Program-made: the position numbers and the translations under genes
Shown here: in pieces, positions 9,542-55,429 of the stretch
How the letters are laid out: the number at the start of each line of letters is the position of its first letter
Position numbering within the stretch: the stretch's first letter is position 1
Origin: Phorcus lineatus
Lineage: Eukaryota; Mollusca; Gastropoda; Trochida; Trochidae
DNA length: 64,000 nt
Assembly (NCBI GenBank): GCA_921293015.1
Contig: OV121081.1
Location: forward strand, 73,177,022 to 73,241,021
Direction of reading: 5' to 3'
The notes under the pieces: model-generated
What the model saw: only the letters and a program-made list of their open reading frames with translations
Database searches by the model: none
What the model was told of the DNA's origin: nothing

Positions 9542-10349
9542 ATGCCAAGACTGAACAGAACGCAACGCAACAACGCTATTGGCAGACTGCAAGCAGGAGC
9601 GACGCAGCGAGATGTTGCAACACACTTTGGCGTGTCCAGACAGACCATCTCTTCATTGTGGACCCGTTTCAACACCCGAAACAGCGTTGATGATAGGCCA
9701 AGGTCAGGCAGACCAAGGGTGACTACTCGGGCCCAAGATCGGTACATCCGACTGCTCCACCTTCGGGAACGCACCAGGACAGCAACGTCAACAACAACGC
9801 AGATACCAGGCCTGCGTCGAATTTCCGACCAAACGGTACGCAACAGGCTGAGAGAGGCTGGACTTTTTCACGACGACCGGTTGGACGTCCCGTTTAAACG
9901 CAACGTCATCTGGCGGAACGTCTCCAGTGGTGTCAACAGAGGATGAGATGGGCACGTGCAAGGTGGAGAACCGTTCTCTTCACTGATGAGTCCCGTTTTC
10001 TGCTTTGACGAAGTGATGGACGAGCACGTGTATACCGACGTCGTGGAGAACGTTATGCTGCTGTGTTCAGGAGGTTGTCCCATTTGGAGGTGGGAGTGTC
10101 ATGGTATGGGCCGGGATTCGTCACGGTGTTAGGGCACCCTTTGTGCATGTTGTGGGTAACCTCACAGGAGTACAGTATAGGGACTTGATCCTACAGCCTT
10201 ACGTTATTCCTCACGTCAACGTCCATTGTGGTCTCTTTCAGCAGGACAATGCTCAACCACATGTTACACGTGTTTGTCAAAACTTTTTACAGCGTAACAA
10301 TGTCCAGACATTGCCATGGCCAGCCAGGTCACCAGATTTGTCACCAATT
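9542..10349 (+). pseudogene. Tc1-like transposase, 5' part (interrupted)
   Basis: A cut-and-paste DD34E transposase of the Tc1 family. From MPRLNRTQRN it shows a helix-turn-helix (GATQRDVATHFGVSRQTISS), a GRPR AT-hook-like linker, a second DNA-binding region, the first catalytic Asp in FTDESRF (near 9990), and the second in QQDNAQPH (near 10245). The tail SPDLSPI ends at 10349. Three small indels break the frame, at about 9997, 10014 and 10065, so the gene is dead apart from its interruption. The final 42 codons, starting with the catalytic Glu, lie 5.6 kb away at 15932-16063, beyond an inserted transposon. Thirty-four residues separate the second Asp from that Glu. Confidence 0.93.
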
Positions 10350-10360
10350 CATGGTTCCGA
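10346..10360 (+). repeat. Left terminal inverted repeat with target-site duplication
   Basis: Flank AATT (10346-10349) followed by catggttccga. The right end reads tcggaaccatg then AATT (15931-15934). Because AATT is itself a palindrome, the duplication could be AT (2 bp, TIR 12 bp) or AATT (4 bp, TIR 11 bp). The inverse similarity stops after about 12 bp. Confidence 0.9.
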
Positions 10361-10386
10361 TGTGCTAATGAGTACCAGTATCTTAG

Positions 10387-10444
10387 CCAATCAGATATCA
10401 GCTCCGAGTTTGCCCGGCGCTGCGATTTGATTGGCGGCCACACT
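10387..10444 (+). promoter_or_regulatory. Two opposed CCAAT boxes upstream of transposase gene
   Basis: A CCAAT core in the context gccaatcag (10387-10391) and an inverted one in gattggcgg (10440-10444) lie about 127 and 74 bp upstream of the transposase start codon at 10518. Both contexts fit NF-Y sites, typical of TATA-less promoters. This is inference from motif and spacing only. Confidence 0.45.
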
Positions 10445-10517
10445 TGCATCACAAACAAATCGTTGTTATGCATTGTGATGCATCGGGAAAATGTAAAGTT
10501 TCAGCCTGTAATCCAAT

Positions 10518-13500
10518 ATGGTTCGTCGATGTGTCTGGGGGAGGTGTAATACAGATGAAAGGTATCGTGACAGATTGATAGGTGTGACACTTTTGCCATT
10601 CCCGAAGCCCAAGACAAATTTAGAGAAGTGTTTGAGGTGGATCAAGGCGTGCGGTAGACCACACGAGCAACTCAACGTCGACAAAATAAATGGCAACAGG
10701 AATAAGGTCGTCTGTTCCAAGGTAAGCAAAAAATCTGGAGAATTTTTAGATACAAAAATATACGTTTTGGCGTAGGAGAGGTAAACAGTAAACTCTACCG
10801 GCAGTTAGCTATGGGAGTAACTTTAGGCCTAGGCTGGTACCGTAACCGTGTACTTCACTAGGACTACTGCAGAAGGCCTACTTGTTGTTTATAATGTCAT
10901 ATGTTGTAAAAGGCTTCGTGTTTATGAGAAAGCATCAAGGAAAGAGGTAGATCTAAATGGAAATATCCGGTAAAATTTAAAATTAATGCATAGTATTTTA
11001 GAATAATGTATATCAATCAAATTTCACACTCTGAATGATTACATTGTAACATATTAAACATACTGTTTATGTGAACATATAAATGATAATTTACAATTGC
11101 AGAAAAATATTTTGTGAGTGTGTGAGAAAAGGCAAATCTAAAGTTCACATGGTTCACCTGTGTAGAACGTTTGGTGCATTTATTGTGTAAATAATTAAAT
11201 AAATAGTTTTGTATCACTGTCAATCATTTCATTTTTGTGTTTTGTATCACAGCATTTTGTTGGGGGAAATGGTCCAACAGAACAGTACCCAGATCCTCTA
11301 CCAGCTGATGGAAGTAAATGTACACCGAGTCGACCACTACCAAAAAAGAGATACCTCAGCTCAGATGAAAATGGCCCTGTGAAAAAGAAGTTAAAATATG
11401 TTCCCTTCAAAGAGATCACAGAGAAGTAAGAAACTGCCCTAGCATCATAGTTACATATATGCTTATACTTTGTACACTGTCGACTTGTAACTAAATAATT
11501 CAAATCTATTGAGGCGATGTATATCCCTGTTCATACATCCCTGTTCAAATCTTTTGGGATGAATAATTGCATGATGAACAAAAATCCTGTACGTTAACAG
11601 TAATCTGTATGTCTTGGATGGTGTCACCGAGGCTTTATAATATATATATCTGAGAATTCCTACAATTGAAAATAAAAACAACTCTTTTTTGAATAAGTTA
11701 ATTATCATAATATTTAATATAAGATTTTGAAGATCACATTGCATTTGTTAGGCAATCAATATTGACAATATATATTTGCAAAATGTCAAAACTGTTTATC
11801 ATCAAAAATGACATATGTAAATGTACATACATTGTAATTATCAATACATAGTTGTAATGTATCATTCCTATTTGGCTTATAGTAATAGTGCTACTTTGGT
11901 GGGGACTGATCACACATATGCGGGAGTCGGTTGTGGTCCTGTCACAGCTGTCCATGGGGAAACATCAACAACAGAAAGTTCTGTTCAAACACAACAAACT
12001 CGCAAAAGTCACAACCAGATATCATGAGTTGTCCTTGAATTTGGGCATAGTACATATGGGACTTTTTCAAATTCATGTCATGGTTATTACATTCTAAACA
12101 AAACCCAACAACTTCCTCACATGCTTTTTCTATGTCCATATTCCGAGCTGAATATGGACACTTTACCTCCAGAATTCCACTTTCTCCATTATCACAAACT
12201 TTTCCATCGGGTGATGCACCTAGAAAGTTAAAGTTATTGTTAATGATTAATCCACAGTCATGGATATGGCGTGAAGGGAATGTTTCCAAATATTTTGCCT
12301 TTGCTTGAGTTTCATGTTTTCTCCCATAATCTAGAGCAGGAGCAGATTTTTTTGTTCTGTTGAATACATCTTCTAAAAATGGAAGTGTTGGCTTGGCTTT
12401 TCTGTTCATTATTTTACCAAAGTTTGATGTGGTAAGTCGTACTTTTCTTTCTGAAAACCAGGTGTCTGAAAATATTTGACCTCTTGTATTTGTCTCTATT
12501 TCCTCAATGTCAGCTTTCTCCATGTGTCGGTTCAGAAATTTGTATTCCTCTGGCAATACTACAGGTGATTGTCTATGTACAGATGTATTGCCACATCCAG
12601 CTGATGTCGACAGGGGCACTGCCGCTTTAAGGTTTCTAGTCTGTAAATAAAAAAAATCAGCATTTATGATTTGCATACCCCAAAAACATAGGCCATCATT
12701 AAAAAAAATGTTTGTTTGTTTTCCCTGCCTACTATTCTAACATTAATCAAACTTTTTCAAAACAATTTTCATTTACCAAATTTAACACTTATAACAGTGA
12801 TGGAAAATTGTTAAGACTTTTTGTTTCCAAAATCCTATTGAGAGATATGAAAGTGAGGGGGGGGTGGGGGGGGGTGGGGGGGGGGGGGGGGGGTGTTTAC
12901 AACAAACAAATGTTTTTAATGATGATGACAAGCCTTATTATACAATATCATTTACAAAATTTTACATATTTACAGGGGTATCCTCCTTGGAAGTTCTAAC
13001 CATGACAGCTGAGATTGAGTCACTCAAAGCCAAGGTCGAGGAACAGGAGAACACCATTAATGAATTACAGCAAGCTGCCAACCAGACTGCCACCAGTGAC
13101 AACAAATGGTTCGGGGTACAATCAGTGCTTAACAACAAAACTAATCACACAGACCTGTTTAAACACTACACTGGGATCACGTATGTGCGATTTGTAGCTT
13201 TGCTGTCATTTCTTATCCCTGAAAACTTCAGTTTACAATTTGAGAAAGGGAGGAGTGACTTAAAGTCATTGTCAAATGAAGATGGTTTGTTTTTGACACT
13301 TACAAGATGTCGACGTGACTTTAGTCTAGCTGATCTAGCAATGAAATTTGGTCTAAAGCTCCAAACCGCTGGAGTTGTTTTCAATACTTGGCTTGACCAC
13401 ATGTATTTTAAGCTTGGTCAGTTGCCTCTTTGGCCACACAGAGATATACTTATAAACAAAATGCCCAAGGATTTCAAAAAGGATTATCCTACTACTTTGA

Positions 13501-14045
13501 TCATCATTGATGGAACTGAGCTTTTTACACAGTCTCCTTGTGCTCTTGGATTACAGAGTCAGTTTTATAGTGATTACAAGGGAAATACAACACTCAAAGG
13601 GTTAATTGGTTGCGATTCAAGAGGAACACTTCTATTTGTGTCAGAATTATTTTCTGGGTCTGTATCAGACAAAGTGATTACAGAAGAAAGTGGGTTTTAT
13701 GAGCTCTTGAAAAATCCAAAAATACAAGGATACGTTCAGGATGGTGATTCCATTATGGCTGATAAAGGGTTCACAATAGCTGATGAATTGGCGAAGTTAA
13801 ATCTAAACCTGAACATCCCCCCTTTTGTCCGCGGTGGAAAACAACTCACAAGTGGAGAAAGAAAGGAAACACAGAAGATTGCCAAACACAGGATTCACAT
13901 AGAGAGACTTATTGCTAAAGTTAAGAAAAATAAAATATTAAAAAGTTTAATCCCCACAAGTATGTTTTCAAGGATTAACAAAATATGGACAGTTTGTTGT
14001 CACCTTACTCTGTTTGAAGACGTTTTTGTCAAAGATAAAGAATGA
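10518..14045 (+). CDS. THAP-domain DDE transposase (four-exon model)
   Basis: Likely the DNA-binding and catalytic protein of the element. Exon 1 (10518-10721) starts MVRRCVWGRC. With exon 2 (11253-11425) it forms a THAP C2CH zinc finger: C5, C10, C66 and H69, plus W41, the PFPK segment and the following F70. Sites AAG|GTAAGC and CACAG|CAT join in phase. Exon 3 (11883-~12007) gives an acidic/TQ-rich linker with SSVQTQ. Exon 4 (12976-14045) begins after ttacag and encodes a coiled coil (TAEIESLKAKVEEQENTINE), a helix-rich region, then a DDE_Tnp_4 domain: D170 (IIIDGTE), D254 (MADKGF) and E301 (HIER), counted from the Met at 13002. Exons 1, 2 and 4 are well supported. The exon 3 donor (12008, aaaa|gtcaca) is weak but keeps phase, giving 523 residues in total. 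Alternatively the transposase is translated separately from 13002. Confidence 0.88.
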
Positions 14046-15858
14046 ACCAAAATTGTCAATGTCAGTTTGTATTTCCAAATAAGACTTTCACAATCATTAA
14101 AGGGAGATAATCATTTGATTGAATGAGGTAAATTTATTCACATATGTATAGTGAATTATTTTCATGTGTTTGGTAGATTTACATGTATATATATATTTTA
14201 CACTGTAAATATACTACAATGTACATACAATGTATCTATGAAATAATGAATCTCAATTCCTAAAGAAATTGTTTTTCTAAAGATAATACAAAATGTGTTG
14301 GCCTCAGAAAATGCAAATAAATTTATTTGATAATTTCAAAACATAAGTTTGGTGTTTTTTTTAATAATTGAAAAAAGAAGTTTTTTAAATTATTACTTGG
14401 ACTAGTACCTGATAAGAAAGTGATGATCCGATGGGAACATCTCCATACGGTGTGGATGTTGTTGGAATGTTGAATCTGGATGATGACAGCGTGTATTGTA
14501 GAGGGCTGCCAACAATCTCAGCAAGTTCCTGAAGTTCAGTGTCTTTTACAATCGGAATTCTGAAGTTAAACAAATTGATACAATTGTAGCAATTTAATGT
14601 ATGAATTATAATATGATAAAACTGGCTCTCACAAGATATATCATGAACAATGCTATGATATAATGCACATGATGTCACAGATATGATCTCACTGAGGTCA
14701 CTGCTCAAGGATGTTTTTGACAGTTTTGTGTTCAGATAATGACATATGTTTATTCTTTTACTGATAACATTTGGAGAATGATTTGAATTAATGCCCACAC
14801 GTCTCCTTATATCAACATGAGTTGATTAAAGTAAAAGATGTTCTGAATACTTACATCAATTCTTAATGATAAAATTGATATCAGAAGACATTTCATGATT
14901 TAGGTGAGATTATCTATTTAGTAATTATTACTTTTTTGGGCAATGAAATATAAGAGTTTATGAGAAAAGTAATTTTGGTATATTTATTTGTTTTCACACA
15001 TCTGAGAAAGAAAATTTACAAAAACAGATGAACTGAGAAGAACATTTCACAACACTTGCACACTTATAAAAATATTCATTTTCTACTTCACACAATTAAA
15101 TGAACAGGATATTTATCCTAAAAAACCCAGATTCTCATACATTTTTGACTGATTGGACATTGACAACTTACGGGTAGTTTTCATCCGGATGACAGATGAT
15201 CGGTTTTCTTTTTCTGTTACTAATGGACGTGCCACGACAATCTGGTTGATAGGTACTGGTTTGACCTTCTGCCCTCTAGGTACATTCCATTGTTGGGGGA
15301 CACTTGTACAGCTCTGATGCTGAGGAACACTGGTGTAGTTGTGTAGCTTGAGTCCTTGGACCGATTTCAGAAGTCCGACAATGTGTGAACAATGTCCATC
15401 ACTCCTGTCAAATACATAAATTTTTAATGCAACGATGATTTCATATGCAATGTGTACACTAACGTCTTATGTTCAGACGACGAAGAGCTGACATTTACAA
15501 GTATATGACAATGAAGTTTTGGATTTGTTTTATATAAAATTAAGTTCTCACACATGATTGCTTACCCAGCTATACAGCTGCAGTGTGATTCAGTCAGTTT
15601 ATCGTCGTTTGAGTTGATTTCGATGTGCAGACGATGTGGCAGCTCCGACTTCCTCATAGACCTCCAGCATTTGGCATCGACTCCTGTGGTGCTCTCATTT
15701 ACGATAGAAACGGAAATTTCGTGAATATATCCCTGAGTGAAGTAGTTCAACCCCTTCTGTTGAGCTTTAAGTGATAATTATTTGTGATTCGGTAAATAAC
15801 TCACAGAAATATTTTCGGGAATCTCTCTCAGTGAATCGGTGGTACCAGAGGTCGCCAT
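11942..15858 (-). CDS. SWIM zinc finger / YqaJ-type exonuclease
   Basis: The second protein of the element, probably acting on DNA ends or intermediates during transposition (inferred). Exon 1 is 15858-15805 (MATSGTTDSLRE). A 48-bp intron follows (gtgagt..cag). Exon 2 (15756-15566) and exon 3 (15404-15172) together create a SWIM finger, CSCIAGSDGHCSH, spanning their junction. Exon 4 is 14559-14409 and exon 5 is 12640-11942. Exon 5 holds the lambda-exonuclease/YqaJ core: the RLTTSNFGKI segment, YGRKHETQA (catalytic Glu), LGASPDG (Asp), ILEVKCP (ExK) and YYAQIQGQL. Exons 4 and 5 join in phase. Exons 3 and 4 do not (one base left, two needed). A 7-nt exon at 14861-14855 before a strong gtaagt would repair phase, giving 444 residues, but this is speculative. 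The C-terminus after CEFVVF is unlike what I expect and may be shortened. Confidence 0.88.
12857..12893 (+). repeat. G-rich tract within transposase intron
   Basis: Runs of 8, 9 and 18 G separated by single T, potentially G-quadruplex-forming. It lies ~80 bp upstream of the acceptor of the transposase catalytic exon, in the last intron. Open frames reading through it as poly-glycine are artefacts. Confidence 0.9.
14046..14408. other. Intron sequence between the two antisense genes
   Basis: AT-rich spacer after the transposase stop at 14043-14045. It contains aataaa at 14317-14322, a candidate polyadenylation signal for the plus gene. It lies within the last intron of the minus-strand nuclease gene. 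Confidence 0.5.
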
Positions 15859-15879
15859 CTTGTCATTAATGTGATGCGG

Positions 15880-15892
15880 AGCAACCGTTGCT
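15880..15892. promoter_or_regulatory. Subterminal perfect palindrome and GC box
   Basis: AGCAACCGTTGCT is a 13-bp perfect palindrome about 30 bp inside the right inverted repeat and 22 bp upstream of the nuclease start codon. It is followed by ggggggcgtggc (15893-15905), a GC/CACCC-type box. The start codon itself sits in an AAGATGGCG context resembling a YY1 site. The palindrome may bind the transposase or a host factor. I did not find it near the left end. Confidence 0.4.
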
Positions 15893-15919
15893 AAGGGGGG
15901 CGTGGCTTACGGAAGATTC

Positions 15920-15934
15920 TCGGAACCATGAATT
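15920..15934 (-). repeat. Right terminal inverted repeat with target-site duplication
   Basis: tcggaaccatga (15920-15931) is the exact inverse of 10349-10360. It is followed directly by the resumed Tc1 reading frame (attgagcat). Confidence 0.9.
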
Positions 15935-16063
15935 GAGCATTTCTGGGACGAACTGGATCGACGCGTGCGCAGTAGGAATCCACCACCCCAAACACTTCCA
16001 GGACTTCTTGCAGCTTTTCAGCACGATTGGCAGAACATTCCACAGCAAGGTTATCAACATTGA
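15932..16063 (+). pseudogene. Tc1-like transposase, 3' part (after insertion)
   Basis: Immediately right of the inserted element, the frame reads IEHFWDELDRRVRSRNPPPQ and continues to AFQHDWQNIP and a stop at 16061-16063. This is the standard Tc1 C-terminus including the third catalytic residue (Glu, codon 15935-15937). It joins in frame to SPDLSPI, which ends at 10349. The two pieces were therefore one gene before the insertion. I could not find the terminal inverted repeats of this Tc1 copy. Confidence 0.93.
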
Positions 16064-47756: not shown

Positions 47757-48570
47757 TCCTAGATTGTGATGAGCAATTAGCTTGTCTCTTTCTCAAAATG
47801 AGGGGGTATGGGGGCCGATTCCCAGATTGTGAAGGACTCTCAGCTCGTCTTTATGTCAAGGGTTGACTCCTAGATTGTGAAGGGCTCATAGCTCACCTTT
47901 ATTTAAACTGAGAGGGTATAGCAGTCGATTCTTAGATTGTGAAGGGCTCACAGCTCGCCTATAAATCAAACTGACACAGTATAGGGGCCGATTCCTAGAC
48001 TGTGAATGGCTCATAGCTCACCTTTAATTAAACTGACAGAATATAGGGGTCAATTCTCAGATTGTGAATGGCTCACATCTCGCCTATATGTCAAACTGAC
48101 GGAGTATAGGGGCCGATTCCTAGATTGTGAAGGGCTCACAACTCGCCTATATGTCAAACTGAGGGAGTATAGGGATCGATTCTCAGATTATGAAGGACTC
48201 ATAGCTCGCCTATAAATCAAACTGACGGAGTATAGAGGTCGATTCTCAGATTGTGAAGAGCTCACAACTCGCCTATATGTCAAAGTGAGGGAGTATAGGG
48301 GCCGTTTCCTAGATTGTGAAGGGTTCACCGCTCGCCTATAAGTCAAACTGAGGGGGTATAGGGGTTGATTCTCAGATTGTGAAGGGCTCACAGTTCGTCA
48401 ATTCTGAGATTGTGAAGGGCTCATAGCTCGCCTATATATGAAACTGAGAGGGTATAGGAGTCGATTCACAGATTGTGAAGGGCTCATAGCTTGCTATTTA
48501 TCAAACTGAGAGGGTATAAGAGTCGATTCTCAGATTGTGAAGGGCTCATAGGTCGTCTTTACGTCATATA
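47757..48570 (+). repeat. Left ~63-bp tandem array
   Basis: About 14 units, mostly 62-63 bp. Each has 'cagattgtgaagggctca', a gctcgcctatat-type middle, 'caaactgag' and 'gtataggggtcgattc'. One or two units are truncated. The same unit, inverted, forms the array at 50050-51860. Because 63 is a multiple of three, reading frames stay open over several units (minus strand 48188-48391), giving a 21-residue periodic peptide. I regard this as incidental. Confidence 0.92.
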
Positions 48571-50049: not shown

Positions 50050-51860
50050 AATGCCCTTCACAATCTAGGAAATCGACCCCTATAGTCCCTCAGCTTCACA
50101 ATCTGGAAATCGATCCCTATACTCCGTCAGTTTGATTTATAGGCAAGCTATGAGCCTTTCACAATCTGAAAATCGACCCACATACAATGACAGTTTGACA
50201 TTTAGGCGAGCTGTGAGCCCTTCACAATCTGAGAATAAATCCCTATACTCTCTCAGTTTGACATATAAACGCGCTGTGAGCCCTTCACAATCTATGAATC
50301 GGCCCCTATACTCCCTCAGTTTCACATAATGACGATATCTGAGCCCTTCACAATCTGAGAATCGACTTCTATTTCCTCTCAGTTTAAAAAAAGGTGAGCT
50401 ATGAGCCTTCACAATCTGAGAATGGATCCCTGTACTCTGACAGTTTGACATTCACGCGAGCTGTGAGCCCTTCACAATCTGAGAATGGACCCATATACTC
50501 CGTCAGTTTGACATATAGGGGCGCTGTGAGCCCTTCACAATCTAGGAATCGGCCCCTATATTCCCTCAGTTTGATTTATAGGCGGGCTATGAGCCCATCA
50601 CAATCTAAGAACCGACTGCTATACCCTCTCAGTTTAAATAAAAGTGAGCTATGAGCCTTCACAATCTGAGAATAGATCCTTTTACTCCCTCAGTTTGACA
50701 TATAGGGGCGCTGTGAGCCCTTCACAATCTAGGAATCGGCCCCTATATTCCCTCAGTTTCACATAATGACGATATCTGAGCACTTCGCAATCTGAGAATT
50801 GACCCCTATACCCTCTTAGTTTGATATAATGACGATCTGTAAACCCTTCACAATCTAGGAATCAATCCCTATACTCCGTCAGTTTGATATATAGGCGAGC
50901 GATGAGCCCTTCACAATCTAGGAATCGACCCATATACTCCCTCAGTTTGATTTATAGGCGGGCTATGAGCCCATCACAATCTGAGAATCGACTGCTATAC
51001 CCTCTCAGTTTAAATAAAAGTGAGCTATGAGCCTTCACAATCTGAGAATAGATCCCTATACTCCCTCAGTTTGACATATAAGCGAGCTATGAGCCCTTCA
51101 CAATCTAGGAATCGACCCATATACTCCCTCAGTTTGATTTATAGGCGGGCTATGAGCCCATCACAATCTAAGAACCGACTGCTATACCCTCTCAGTTTAA
51201 ATAAAAGTGAGCTATGAGCCTTCACAATCTGAGAATAGATCCTTTTACTCCCTCAGTTTGACATATAGGGGCGCTGTGAGCCCTTCACAATCTAGGAATC
51301 GGCCCCTATATTCCCTCAGTTTCACATAATGACGATATCTGAGCACTTCGCAATCTGAGAATTGACCCCTATACCCTCTTAGTTTGATATAATGACGATC
51401 TGTAAACCCTTCAAAAATCTAGGAATCAATCCCTATACTCCGTCAGTTTGATATATCGGCGAGCGATGAGCCCTTCACAATCTAGGAATCGACCCATATA
51501 CTCCCTCAGTTTGATTTATAGGCGGGCTATGAGCCCATCACAATCTGAGAATCGACTGCTATACCCTCTCAGTTTAAATAAAGGTGAGCTATGAGTCTTC
51601 ACAATCTGAGAATAGATCCCTATACTCCCTCAGTTTGACATATAAGCGAGCTGTGAGCCCTTCACAATCTAGGAATCGGCCCCTATATTCCCTCAGTTTC
51701 AAATAATGACGATATCTGAGCACTTCGCAATCTGAGAATCGACTTCTTTACCCTCTTAGTTTGATATAATGACGATCTGTAAGCCCTTCACAATCTGGGA
51801 ATCGATCCCTACACTCCGTCAGTTTGATATATAGGCGTGCCATGAACCTGTCACAATCTA
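50050..51860 (-). repeat. Right ~63-bp tandem array with higher-order repeats
   Basis: About 30 units in inverse orientation to the left array, each with 'gagcccttcacaatct', 'gaatcgacccctatact' and 'cctcagtttgaca'. A nine-unit block recurs with 563-bp spacing (for example 'aggaatcggcccctatattc' at 50731 and 51294, and again at 51671). This shows recent amplification by unequal exchange of multi-unit blocks. Confidence 0.92.
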
Positions 51861-52122: not shown

Positions 52123-53440
52123 CTACTTATAATCAAACATCTTATGCTTTTTTGTCAGTTGCCTGAATAGGTTCAATGAAGAATCACTGCAGAATCAAGC
52201 GTTCTAAAACTTGCAAAAAGGTTGACTCATATGCATGTGTACCTACTTCAACCTTTAAGACATATATACTTAGAACCAATGTTTAATGCGTTGAAAATAA
52301 GGAAAAAACTTTCTGTTTGTGGCCCTATTCAAATGTTTCGATCCTTAGTGATTAGAAAATGAGACAGAAATACATATCTCATGCAACGTTTTAGAAAAAC
52401 AGATATACCGTCAAAACAGACAACGCAGAGGTCGATTTTAATTGGTCATGCCAATTGAAGACCTTTGTCTCAGTATAATTAATGGTTGAAACCTCTTCAT
52501 CACTGCACACTGTACGGCAGCAAAGCTAATCGGAGACGATATCATTAGATAAACAGTGGTCAGACGTCTACAGGCTCGCGCTGGACCTTACGGTAGATTT
52601 GGATTAAGGCCCGACAACTACCATAGATAGTCTGTTCACAGGATATGTAACCTACAGAAAAAATGTTGGATCACCTTTTAAGACAAAGACTTTCATTAAT
52701 GTCTCGTCAAAGATTGACAAACCATAACGCCTAATGGCATTCAATGTTCGGTAATTTTGATTACCTCTAGTCCGCTAAACAATAATATTTTGTTAACTAG
52801 ATAAAAATGAGATTTTCCCTGCAATCAACAAGTCAAATAACCAATAAATTTGGACCCAAAAGGAATTTGTTTTAACGTTGTTTTTTATTAAAAAAATGTA
52901 ACGATACAAAGTAATAATAATTATTGAAAAATGACTTATTGGGAGTGACCAATTTCCTTTATTGGGCATATAGTTGTAAATACAATTTAAACTTTCAGTT
53001 TCAGAGTGTAATTGAATATTCTAATGTATTCTATATTTTGACAAAATAATGTTCAATTAAAACCAAAGTGTGGAGAAGATCATTTGTTTTAAGTGTTTTC
53101 TTTTTTATCTCCAACTGTAGCAACAAGTTGATTTAATAATGCCATTTTATGTACTTTACTGTCATCTGATATAGCCTCGCGGGAGTCTCTAATTACATTC
53201 CATACCGTTTCTATCTATATGAATGTCATTGTGAAAAGCCCCTGTTTTGTCTGTTTCATTCCAAAATTGCTGGACCAGGGTATAAGACCGAATACCATAA
53301 GCCAGGATCTGATTTGAAGTGGAGCATAAAGTTTCGTCTTGGTATCTGACCGATCAAAATCTGGATTACTCTGTTTGACAAATCAAATTTTCAAAACCTT
53401 GCGCTATATCACATGAGTTATATAGCTGTTTCAAAGGTCT
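52123..53440. other. No recognisable feature
   Basis: AT-rich sequence right of the foldback element, with no supported gene or repeat. Confidence 0.4.
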
Positions 53441-53749
53441 ATGTTGACATATATAACCCTATCTTTGCCCGTAAATGTTTTTCATGGAAGCTGAAAAAAT
53501 CCATTCAAATACATGAGTTTCACATTCAAAAGCCTTATCTATATAGAATGTAAAACGCTTTTTAGTTCGAGAGATATGATCCGGAGAAAACACTATGTTG
53601 ACATATATAACGTTGTCATTTTGCCCGTAAATGTTTTTCATAGAAACTAAAAAAAATCCATTCACATATATGAGTTTCACCTTCAAAAGGCTTATCTATA
53701 TAGAATGTTAAAATCATTTTAGTTTGAGAGATATGATCCGGATAAAACA
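53441..53749 (+). repeat. Two-copy tandem duplication, 154-bp unit
   Basis: Units begin atgttgacatatataac at 53441 and 53595. They share 'gcccgtaaatgtttttcat', 'aaaatccattca', 'cttatctatatagaatgt' and 'gagagatatgatccgga'. Divergence is low. A minus-strand frame (53459-53686) is open over the duplication but looks incidental. Confidence 0.9.
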
Positions 53750-55429
53750 CTTGCTTAAAAAGTCCGTGTCTAAGAGATTTTTCAGAGGAAATAAAATAAT
53801 GAGTTTGGCATATTAGTCAAACCTTCGAAGTCGAAATCTGTAACAAGTTGAATAAAAAATAGCTTCAGCCTTACACATCTACGTCAATTGCAACATTAAA
53901 ACAATCACTTTATGATTATCCTTAATCTAGATATTCGGGAGCACTCTAATACATAAACAATATGCTGCTGTAGACGTCGTCAAAAGTCTTTGAAGTCTTG
54001 ACGAAGGGTTTCTATACCATCGTCCTTGAATAACGACTCGAGAGGAAAGTTTATATCAGGGCGGGGATGATTCTGCACTGTCATTATAAAACTTAATCGT
54101 TTCTCAGCTCTTTTCATTTACTCCTAAGCTCACCTTATTTCATGTTGACAGAAGATGGCAGTTGTTAACAAACGGGAAATAACTCGTCCTTTGCTTCAAT
54201 AAAGAATAAAATAGAAGTGCTATCACATACTGAAAGGTAGTGGATCGATGCTTGCTTGAATATTGTCATATTGATGAAGCTAAATTGGATTCCTTGGCTG
54301 ACCAAATACTCCAGACGAAATGTTCAGCACGCTATATTATATCTGACACGTGCTCTGTCTTTCCACTCTGATCTAAAATTAAATAAGCTCCAAAGTCAAC
54401 CTTAACATGGCGTCTTTGTCGTGATTTCTATTCGAGATAATACAATTGCTCTCCTTGATAACAGCTGCAGCTCAACACTTTCCACGTTTCAACTTAACCT
54501 TGTTATAGGGAGTATGGTTTACACTTAGTCGTGTCAATCTCTGACCGCGATAGATTGTGTGGCATGGTCAATTTGAACTTCACTCGATTGATAGGACAAA
54601 CAGTAAATTAGATTTATCATCTAAACCCTTTTCCTTACTAATTCTGAAATTTTCAGTCCACTGGGAATGAAAAGTATTGATTCAGAAATGATTAAGGCAT
54701 CAATTTATAATCATTACATTTGTAGTGAAGACATAAAAGCTGAATTTTTAAGTTCAACTTAAAGAATATTGCTGTTATTTTATTTTTTCGTTTCAAGGTT
54801 ACGATATTGGTTGACAAACTTTATAATATCTTATAATTTGTAGAACATAATTACTCAGTATTTTTACTACGTTTCTCTTTATCTATATATGTCTATATTT
54901 ATCAACCGGCTACGCTTCGAGAGATTTACAATGCTATTTCCATTTGCAACAGAAGTTTTTAACTATCAACGTGGCTAACATAGTACTTTTATACCATATC
55001 CTGGACACTACCTTCGATAAATCTTTTCTTTCACCCCTAACAGTGCCTTTGTATGCGTCCAATGTAAGTTAAAAACTACTTCAAACATTTATATATAGAA
55101 GTAGTCTGCAATGATTCCATTAGGTCGACAGCGTGGATTGGTTAGGATAGTATCAATACGAAATAATTTTATCATTTGCTTTTATGGATGTCTGTGACAT
55201 GTTGCGAGTCTACAACTGATTTTATCATCATTACAAAGTGACTCATGGTGTTAATGGTAATATGGTAAATACATTTTGGTCATAGTAAAATTGCTTTAAT
55301 GTCAATTTTTGACAAGAACTAAACTGATAAATTGTAAACAAAATTTATGATAATATCTTAAAAAATGCCTGAATTATTATTAGGTCTGCAGACGAAAGTC
55401 GTGAAGACCTACTGTTATCCTGATTATTA
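53750..55429. other. No recognisable feature
   Basis: Non-coding. Weak similarity between 54300-54360 and segment A near 23320-23435 ('atatctgaca.gt.ttctgtct') supports segment C colinearity. Confidence 0.35.

Follow-up and report, generated by a model that had tools for sequence, protein, structure and literature searches.

What kind of element lies at positions 10349 to 15931 of a 64,000-nucleotide stretch of the gastropod Phorcus lineatus (contig OV121081.1, positions 73,177,022 to 73,241,021 of the forward strand; the window in the following), and are its genes still whole? A first, sequence-only reading had taken it for an apparently intact ISL2EU-like transposon with a THAP-DDE transposase gene and a SWIM-YqaJ nuclease gene. 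Here, we compare the element with its copies and relatives in the genome searched (G000, 958 Mb, 74 contigs), which are referred to by locus numbers such as L012. It is very probable, in our judgement, that the element is a decayed, low-copy ISL2EU-group transposon of the cut-and-paste kind that entered a high-copy Tc1-like element at AATT, and that an undamaged copy carries two interleaved genes on opposite strands.

The element measures 5583 bp (10349..15931, no strand) and shares its ends with six other copies. It opens with the 12-bp terminal inverted repeat (TIR) TCATGGTTCCGA (10349..10360, plus strand) and closes with the reverse complement of TCATGGTTCCGA (15920..15931, minus strand); both belong to a 16-bp perfect inverted repeat at the element ends, which confirms the earlier description of the repeats as perfect. 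The TIR starts with TCATGG in all seven two-ended copies (the window copy, L012-L016 and L018) and likewise in the sister families L050 and L051. Copy comparison and the palindromic AATT site identify an AT target site duplication at 10347..10348 and 15932..15933 (no strand). AT flanks both ends in six of the seven two-ended copies, and four of these six show the full AATT core. A 4-bp duplication of AATT was given up after comparison with L014 and L018.

The host of the insertion is a Tc1-like transposase frame, which the element interrupts. When the flanks are joined with AATT present once, they read ...SPDLSPIEHFWDELDRRVR..., and the DDE_3 score of the host rises from 17.0 to 34.1 bits (Pfam cut-off 28.6). 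A search with the 255-bp joined flank gave 981 first-look candidates, 40 of which were scored; all 40 paralogous places match at 96-97% in equal-length stretches of 239-241 bases. By this match they are empty sites for the window element, and the claim that the interrupted host fixes the ends at 10349 and 15931 holds. Together, the 981 candidates and the 40 matches suggest a high-copy host element. The Tc1-like host itself, around 9560-10349 and 15935-16060, is seemingly very abundant in the genome.

The transposase gene runs on the plus strand in four predicted exons. Exon 1 (10518..10721) contains the C-x4-C of the THAP domain found by Pfam, and its splice site is conserved in L050 and L051. 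Exon 2 (11253..11425), with an acceptor conserved in L050-L052, completes THAP with C-x2-H and continues with a basic stretch. Exon 3 (11883..11986) is truncated: as comparison with L013 shows, its 3' end has been deleted together with the 5' splice site. Exon 4 (12976..14045) encodes HTH_Tnp_4 and DDE_Tnp_4 and is open in the window copy; the codons of the catalytic triad lie there on the plus strand at 13509-13511 (D), 13761-13763 (D) and 13902-13904 (E), with a spacing of 83 and 46 residues. The Pfam scores are above the cut-offs for THAP (31.4 and 33.6 bits; cut-off 23.9), HTH_Tnp_4 (32.8 and 33.6 bits; 27) and DDE_Tnp_4 (137.6 and 138.5 bits; 24.8). PDB searches gave no convincing match for the DDE exon and weak matches alone for the THAP part, e.g., 2jm3 with an E-value of 0.18. 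Transposase intron 3 also contains a G-rich run (~12857-12893), where L012-L015 are shorter by 15-21 bp.

The second gene is read on the minus strand in five predicted exons. Exon 1 (15805..15858) begins with the start codon at 15858. Exon 2 (15566..15756), placed by the gene model and the splice sites of relatives, carries the CxC of a SWIM-like motif, and exon 3 (15172..15404), which has lost a net 1 bp between 15218 and 15219, its CxH. Exon 4 (14409..14559) is in phase with exon 3 in L012 and L013 but out of phase in the window. Exon 5 (11987..12640), recognised by Pfam YqaJ and PDB matches, encodes the YqaJ nuclease without its last 40 codons. In the window, this exon reads on into 11942..11986 (minus strand), which, in the alignment with L012, L013, L015 and L016, is antisense read-through of transposase exon 3 and not native YqaJ. 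The nuclease scores 56.6 bits with Pfam YqaJ (cut-off 22) and 31.4 bits with Viral_alk_exo (cut-off 20), matches PHROG 434, a RecE-like exonuclease, in a PHROGs search, and finds Exonuclease 3syy (E-value 3.7e-6) and lambda exonuclease 1avq (0.018) in PDB, with E, D and ExK kept. The corresponding codons of exon 5 are E 12311-12313, D 12206-12208, E 12167-12169 and K 12161-12163 (minus strand); we take these residues to be the lambda exonuclease active site. The E, D, ExK pattern is thus common to the lambda exonuclease/YqaJ family (3syy, 1avq; PHROG 434), and here it is joined to a SWIM-like CxC..CxH in a eukaryotic transposon. The earlier statement that all recognised residues are present stands for the DDE triad and the nuclease; the SWIM-like CxC..CxH was seen by eye, with similar motifs in L054 and L055, and the Pfam SWIM models gave no match in the window proteins at E-values up to 1 or 10. 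The suggested Pfam check thus bears out THAP, DDE_Tnp_4 and YqaJ.

By its AT duplication, its THAP-HTH-DDE transposase and its YqaJ second gene, the element fits the ISL2EU group, in line with the two-protein, ISL2EU-like assignment made at first. ISL2EU belongs to the PHIS superfamily (Han et al. 2015, PMC4482050), and the account given there lists THAP and YqaJ as traits, an AT target duplication at A/AT/T and a mean size of ~4840 bp, to which our element comes near; all 25 ISL2EU families of that paper are from animals. A reading as Spy deserves mention at this point. An AT duplication with T..A ends is the same string as a blunt insertion of TT..AA ends, and the sequence cannot separate the two; TT...AA ends at AATT can be written as an insertion between A and T without duplication. 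The published sister clade Spy has a related DDE transposase as well and an AT-rich palindromic target, AAATTT, which it enters without duplication (AAA/TTT; PMC11304231). Spy has, however, a single transposase gene and no nuclease (PMC4482050), compared with two genes here, one with YqaJ, and THAP together with YqaJ is listed for ISL2EU in the same source. We regard membership in Spy as highly improbable. PIF/Harbinger elements likewise combine a related DDE transposase with a second protein, but have a TWA duplication and a Myb/SANT partner instead of the AT duplication and YqaJ partner seen here (PMC4482050).

Is the window copy intact, as first proposed? Its ends and catalytic residues are present and the DDE exon is open, which speaks for an intact and potentially active autonomous element. 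Alignment with other copies reveals two lesions, neither of which occurs in L012 or L013. The first is a 212-bp deletion with its junction at 11986..11987 (no strand), which affects both genes: the 212 bp that should follow 11986 are present in L012, L013, L015 and L016, and L014 has them too, interrupted by a further insertion (709 bp in all). The junction shows a 4-bp AAAC microhomology. In L013, the stretch carries the transposase exon 3 donor GTAAGT as well as the last 40 YqaJ codons and the stop; its deletion therefore deprives transposase exon 3 of the window copy of its 5' splice site and YqaJ of its final 40 codons. The native C-terminal stretch of YqaJ is conserved in the relatives L050, L052, L030-L032 and L034, whereas the window YqaJ ends in 14 residues translated antisense across transposase exon 3. 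The second lesion was judged against L012 and L013, the copies with a complete SWIM-YqaJ exon 3. This exon has 233 bp in the window versus 234 in the two copies (GTT-ACT versus GTTCTCT), and the donor 15171 and acceptor 14559 are in phase with a 234-bp exon 3 and out of phase with one of 233 bp; the 1-bp net deletion near 15218 therefore shifts the SWIM-YqaJ frame.

As a replacement for the lost donor, the best in-phase candidate is 12008; on a simple matrix it scores -0.3, whereas the exon 2 donor at 11426 reaches 7.0. This weak donor and an odd acceptor or donor of SWIM-YqaJ were misfits of the gene models, and the sister copies identify them as lesions. The same holds for an apparent coding overlap of transposase exon 3 (1527-1645 in L013) with the YqaJ exon (1720-2496 in L013). 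L013 shows no such overlap, and that in the window is due to the 212-bp deletion. Short of assembly errors, an intact copy is refuted, and we give it next to no credence. By comparison with its sisters, the window element is a damaged copy with lesions in both genes despite its catalytic residues. Two further points concern the alignment. The 124 bp at 14946-15069 are not an insertion of the window copy, as L018 matches across these bases, and they were probably lost from L012 and L013. L018 was set aside as evidence on the 212-bp stretch, where blastn matches its two ends and nothing in its middle part.

What an undamaged copy looks like is best seen in L012 and L013. Both have frames of 521 and 468 amino acids without internal stops, and the phases fit through all exons. 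By the published standard, a potentially active ISL2EU element has both frames intact; the window copy falls short of it, and L012 and L013 have open frames. Three further copies are decayed to a varying degree. In L014, the transposase frame is preserved and SWIM-YqaJ exon 3 is largely gone; in L015, the DDE exon is damaged and SWIM-YqaJ exon 2 is interrupted by a stop; L016, whose right part is missing, carries stops in its DDE exon. The ~0.5 kb insertion within the 709-bp stretch of L014 has the ends TAGGGGTG...CACCCCTA and the appearance of a small non-autonomous element lodged within the ISL2EU copy. The window copy differs from L013 by 44 substitutions in 5434 aligned bases (0.81%); its divergence from L014 is 3.05%, and from L016 5.34%. 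L012 and L013 differ by 29 substitutions in 5629 aligned bases (0.52%). A DNA search with the left end gave at least 11 matches, corresponding to at least nine elements of the window family when two matches on contig C12 are counted as one element and C1:7.57M (68%) is assigned to the sister family L051; the right end gave at least seven matches. On these counts, the family is small and low-copy. Near-identical copies and empty sites, the two things to be looked for in the genome, were thus both found. Neither of the two outcomes that would have refuted the first reading came about: the expected domains were matched, and some copies are free of the lesions.

How are the two genes arranged? Along the plus strand, transposase exons 1-3 are followed by nuclease exon 5 (minus), transposase exon 4 and nuclease exons 4, 3, 2 and 1 (minus). 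In terms of predicted exons, transposase exon 4 sits within nuclease intron 4, and nuclease exon 5 within transposase intron 3. Such an arrangement is absent from the first reading. The minus-strand parts might also be two genes, one for SWIM at the right end and one for YqaJ nested in an intron of the transposase gene, i.e., nesting and not interleaving. Splicing is read from sequence alone, and the intron between exons 4 and 5 takes ~1.8 kb in the window; both would suit two genes. We nevertheless consider such a split unlikely. The phases fit across five exons in L012 and L013, and families at ~57% transposase identity retain the last donor and acceptor. Moreover, the convergent element at C17:35.5M has its SWIM and YqaJ matches in phase in one 421-aa frame, which supports one fused SWIM-YqaJ protein.

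The interleaved arrangement is not restricted to the window family. The order YqaJ (minus), DDE (plus), SWIM (minus) is repeated in L050, L051 and L052 (57% transposase identity) and in L053 (45%). Comparable splice sites lie at homologous places in L050-L052, namely the transposase exon 1 donor (L050 and L051) and exon 2 acceptor, and the nuclease exon 2 donor, exon 4 donor and exon 5 acceptor. A single unbroken match spans nuclease exons 1-2 in these three relatives, and the short first nuclease intron may be absent there. Both THAP exons are found in L050 and L051 and exon 2 in L052; in L053, THAP exons were not found. L051 itself is unsound, with a YqaJ match split over frames and Q in place of the catalytic E of DDE.

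Genome-wide, the DDE search gave at least 117 matches, merged into at least 110 places, and the YqaJ search at least 150 matches, of which the best candidates were scored. DDE and YqaJ were paired when lying within 5 kb of each other; copies were counted singly, such that the numbers refer to places and not to independent events. For 72 of the 110 DDE places a YqaJ match lies within this distance, and it is antisense in all 72. YqaJ lies 5' of DDE, as in the interleaved order, in 23 of them and 3' (tail-to-tail) in 49. The pair at C9:23986145 is a mispairing, its YqaJ being 481 bp from another DDE, which reduces the 23 to 22. The layout follows the similarity to the window DDE. At 50% identity or more there are 13 interleaved, no convergent and two unpaired places; at 43-49%, nine interleaved, five convergent and eight unpaired; and below 43%, one interleaved (the mispairing), 44 convergent and 28 unpaired. 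All 18 paired places with at least 46% identity are interleaved. The SWIM exon search, with at least 43 matches, places SWIM antisense and 3' of DDE in 17 of the 23 places with a 5' YqaJ, or 17 of 22 when the mispairing is set aside; SWIM was not found in the remaining six of the 23, among them L014, which lost most of exon 3. Wherever SWIM matches within 7 kb of a DDE place, as it does at 23 of them, it is 3' and antisense. Among the convergent elements, the near-identical ISL2EU-type pair L046 and L044 (C12:23076436 and C12:23086742) lies in opposite orientation ~10 kb apart.

Selection and descent were studied on the interleaved families, with dN/dS computed within two families other than that of the window. 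For DDE, dN/dS is 0.15-0.18 between L034 and L030, L031, L032 and L035, and 0.16 and 0.11 between L050 and L051 or L052. YqaJ gives 0.18-0.20 in the same L034 pairs and 0.35 for L050-L052, and the SWIM exon 0.04 and 0.03 for L050 against L051 and L052. Thus dN/dS is low for both genes in these more distant pairs of both families. The pair L051-L052 has 0.40 for DDE and 0.12 for the SWIM exon. The 16 interleaved rows cluster together in a tree of 22 DDE rows and one phage outgroup. The aligned interleaved rows (L013, L050, L052, L030, L032 and L034) have a 9-residue stretch ahead of the second D, which is absent from the convergent L044 and from L043 and L049. A single origin of the interleaved layout is likely.

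Several observations weigh against our reading of a decayed ISL2EU copy whose undamaged form is interleaved. L013 is flanked by TT and CA and has no target duplication, and in L012 the transposase exon 3 donor is GTCAGT; therefore, neither open copy is perfect on every count. Every splice site was read from sequence. The TIR begins with TCATGG, where ISL2EU TIRs usually begin with GG, a feature that is not exclusive (PMC4482050). For 38 of the 110 DDE places no YqaJ was found within 5 kb, and both layouts occur at 43-45% identity, including all five convergent places of the middle band. The dN/dS values of close pairs scatter from 0.23 to 1.49, as is possible for decaying copies. Support for the interleaved group is weak (65/30, with 70% of bootstrap trees), and the tree holds only two other lineages and a very long outgroup branch.

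Implementing all facts, an undamaged copy would express a 521-aa THAP-HTH-DDE transposase from four plus-strand exons and a 468-aa SWIM-YqaJ protein with a lambda-exonuclease-like nuclease from five minus-strand exons. In DDE elements, the DDE domain cuts and joins the ends. By analogy, THAP and HTH would bind the element ends here, and the DDE domain would cut and join them. For the nuclease we propose, tentatively and with doubt prevailing, that it resects the donor break in the 5'-3' direction and thereby directs repair towards re-copying of the element from the sister or homologue. According to PMC4482050, the function of the second gene is not known, in agreement with the earlier remark that it is unproven, and the authors of PMC9179366 know of no reported proof of ISL2EU activity.

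In our reading, the interleaved layout is derived and belongs to one ISL2EU clade of this genome, where many tail-to-tail elements occur as well. To convert one layout into the other, the YqaJ exon would have to move past the DDE exon just once. Whether the layout has an effect of its own is a further question. It may be neutral, a frozen rearrangement of one ancestor that was kept since both genes splice, and to this we assign about an even chance: one block move explains it, and no effect of the layout itself was seen in the tests here. Its retention across deep divergence (43% identity or more to the window), with low dN/dS, speaks against neutrality; low dN/dS, however, indicates selection on the genes and not on the layout. 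Interleaving could, on the other hand, hold the two genes together and produce complementary RNA. Convergent transcription would yield complementary pre-mRNAs, with the nuclease 3' UTR antisense across transposase exon 3; in L013, the first polyadenylation-like signal after the YqaJ stop is at 1362, beyond transposase exon 3 (1527-1645). The loss of either gene would be hard without harm to the other, compare the single 212-bp deletion that hits both in the window. That one ISL2EU clade maintains its interlocked antisense pair for this effect, with gene loss hindered and a built-in double-stranded RNA brake on transposition, is a speculative idea which we think improbable.

Descriptions of such elements are mainly found in Repbase Reports. 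In the literature searched, with Repbase Reports and most subscription papers outside the search, we found no description of interleaved ISL2EU genes. A word count of the main text of PMC4482050 yielded no mention of genes interleaved on opposite strands, the arrangement found here; the words orientation, opposite, intron, antisense and convergent are all absent from it. The available parts of PMC9179366, PMC12730594, PMC11304231, PMC10225492 and PMC7826175 do not describe it. Single-protein searches, which detect close relatives only, found no relative in viral contigs (DDE and YqaJ proteins) or genome contigs (DDE exon). A phage DNA search gave no relative, and Rfam no match on the window; plasmid and phage protein searches returned distant transposases alone (24-27% identity; two and one records).

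Elsewhere in the window, a 63-bp tandem repeat forms two mutually inverted arrays (47860-48555 and 50094-51860), ~1.5 kb apart. A 157-bp unit occurs in two tandem copies at 53439-53751 (88% matches), and a 203-aa open stretch at 1962-2573 resembles, by eye alone, the end of a retroelement reverse transcriptase.

For annotation, the element carries a warning: an exon-by-exon search takes the interleaved layout for divergent genes. In bivalve genome papers, YqaJ-domain genes are filed under endogenous viral elements (PMC7826175) and under recombinases (PMC10225492). For the family, the two sister copies with both frames open, L012 and L013, make the role of the YqaJ nuclease testable. From a biological point of view, interleaved antisense genes in at least three diverged families, beside many tail-to-tail elements, offer a natural comparison of gene layout with transposon upkeep and self-limitation.

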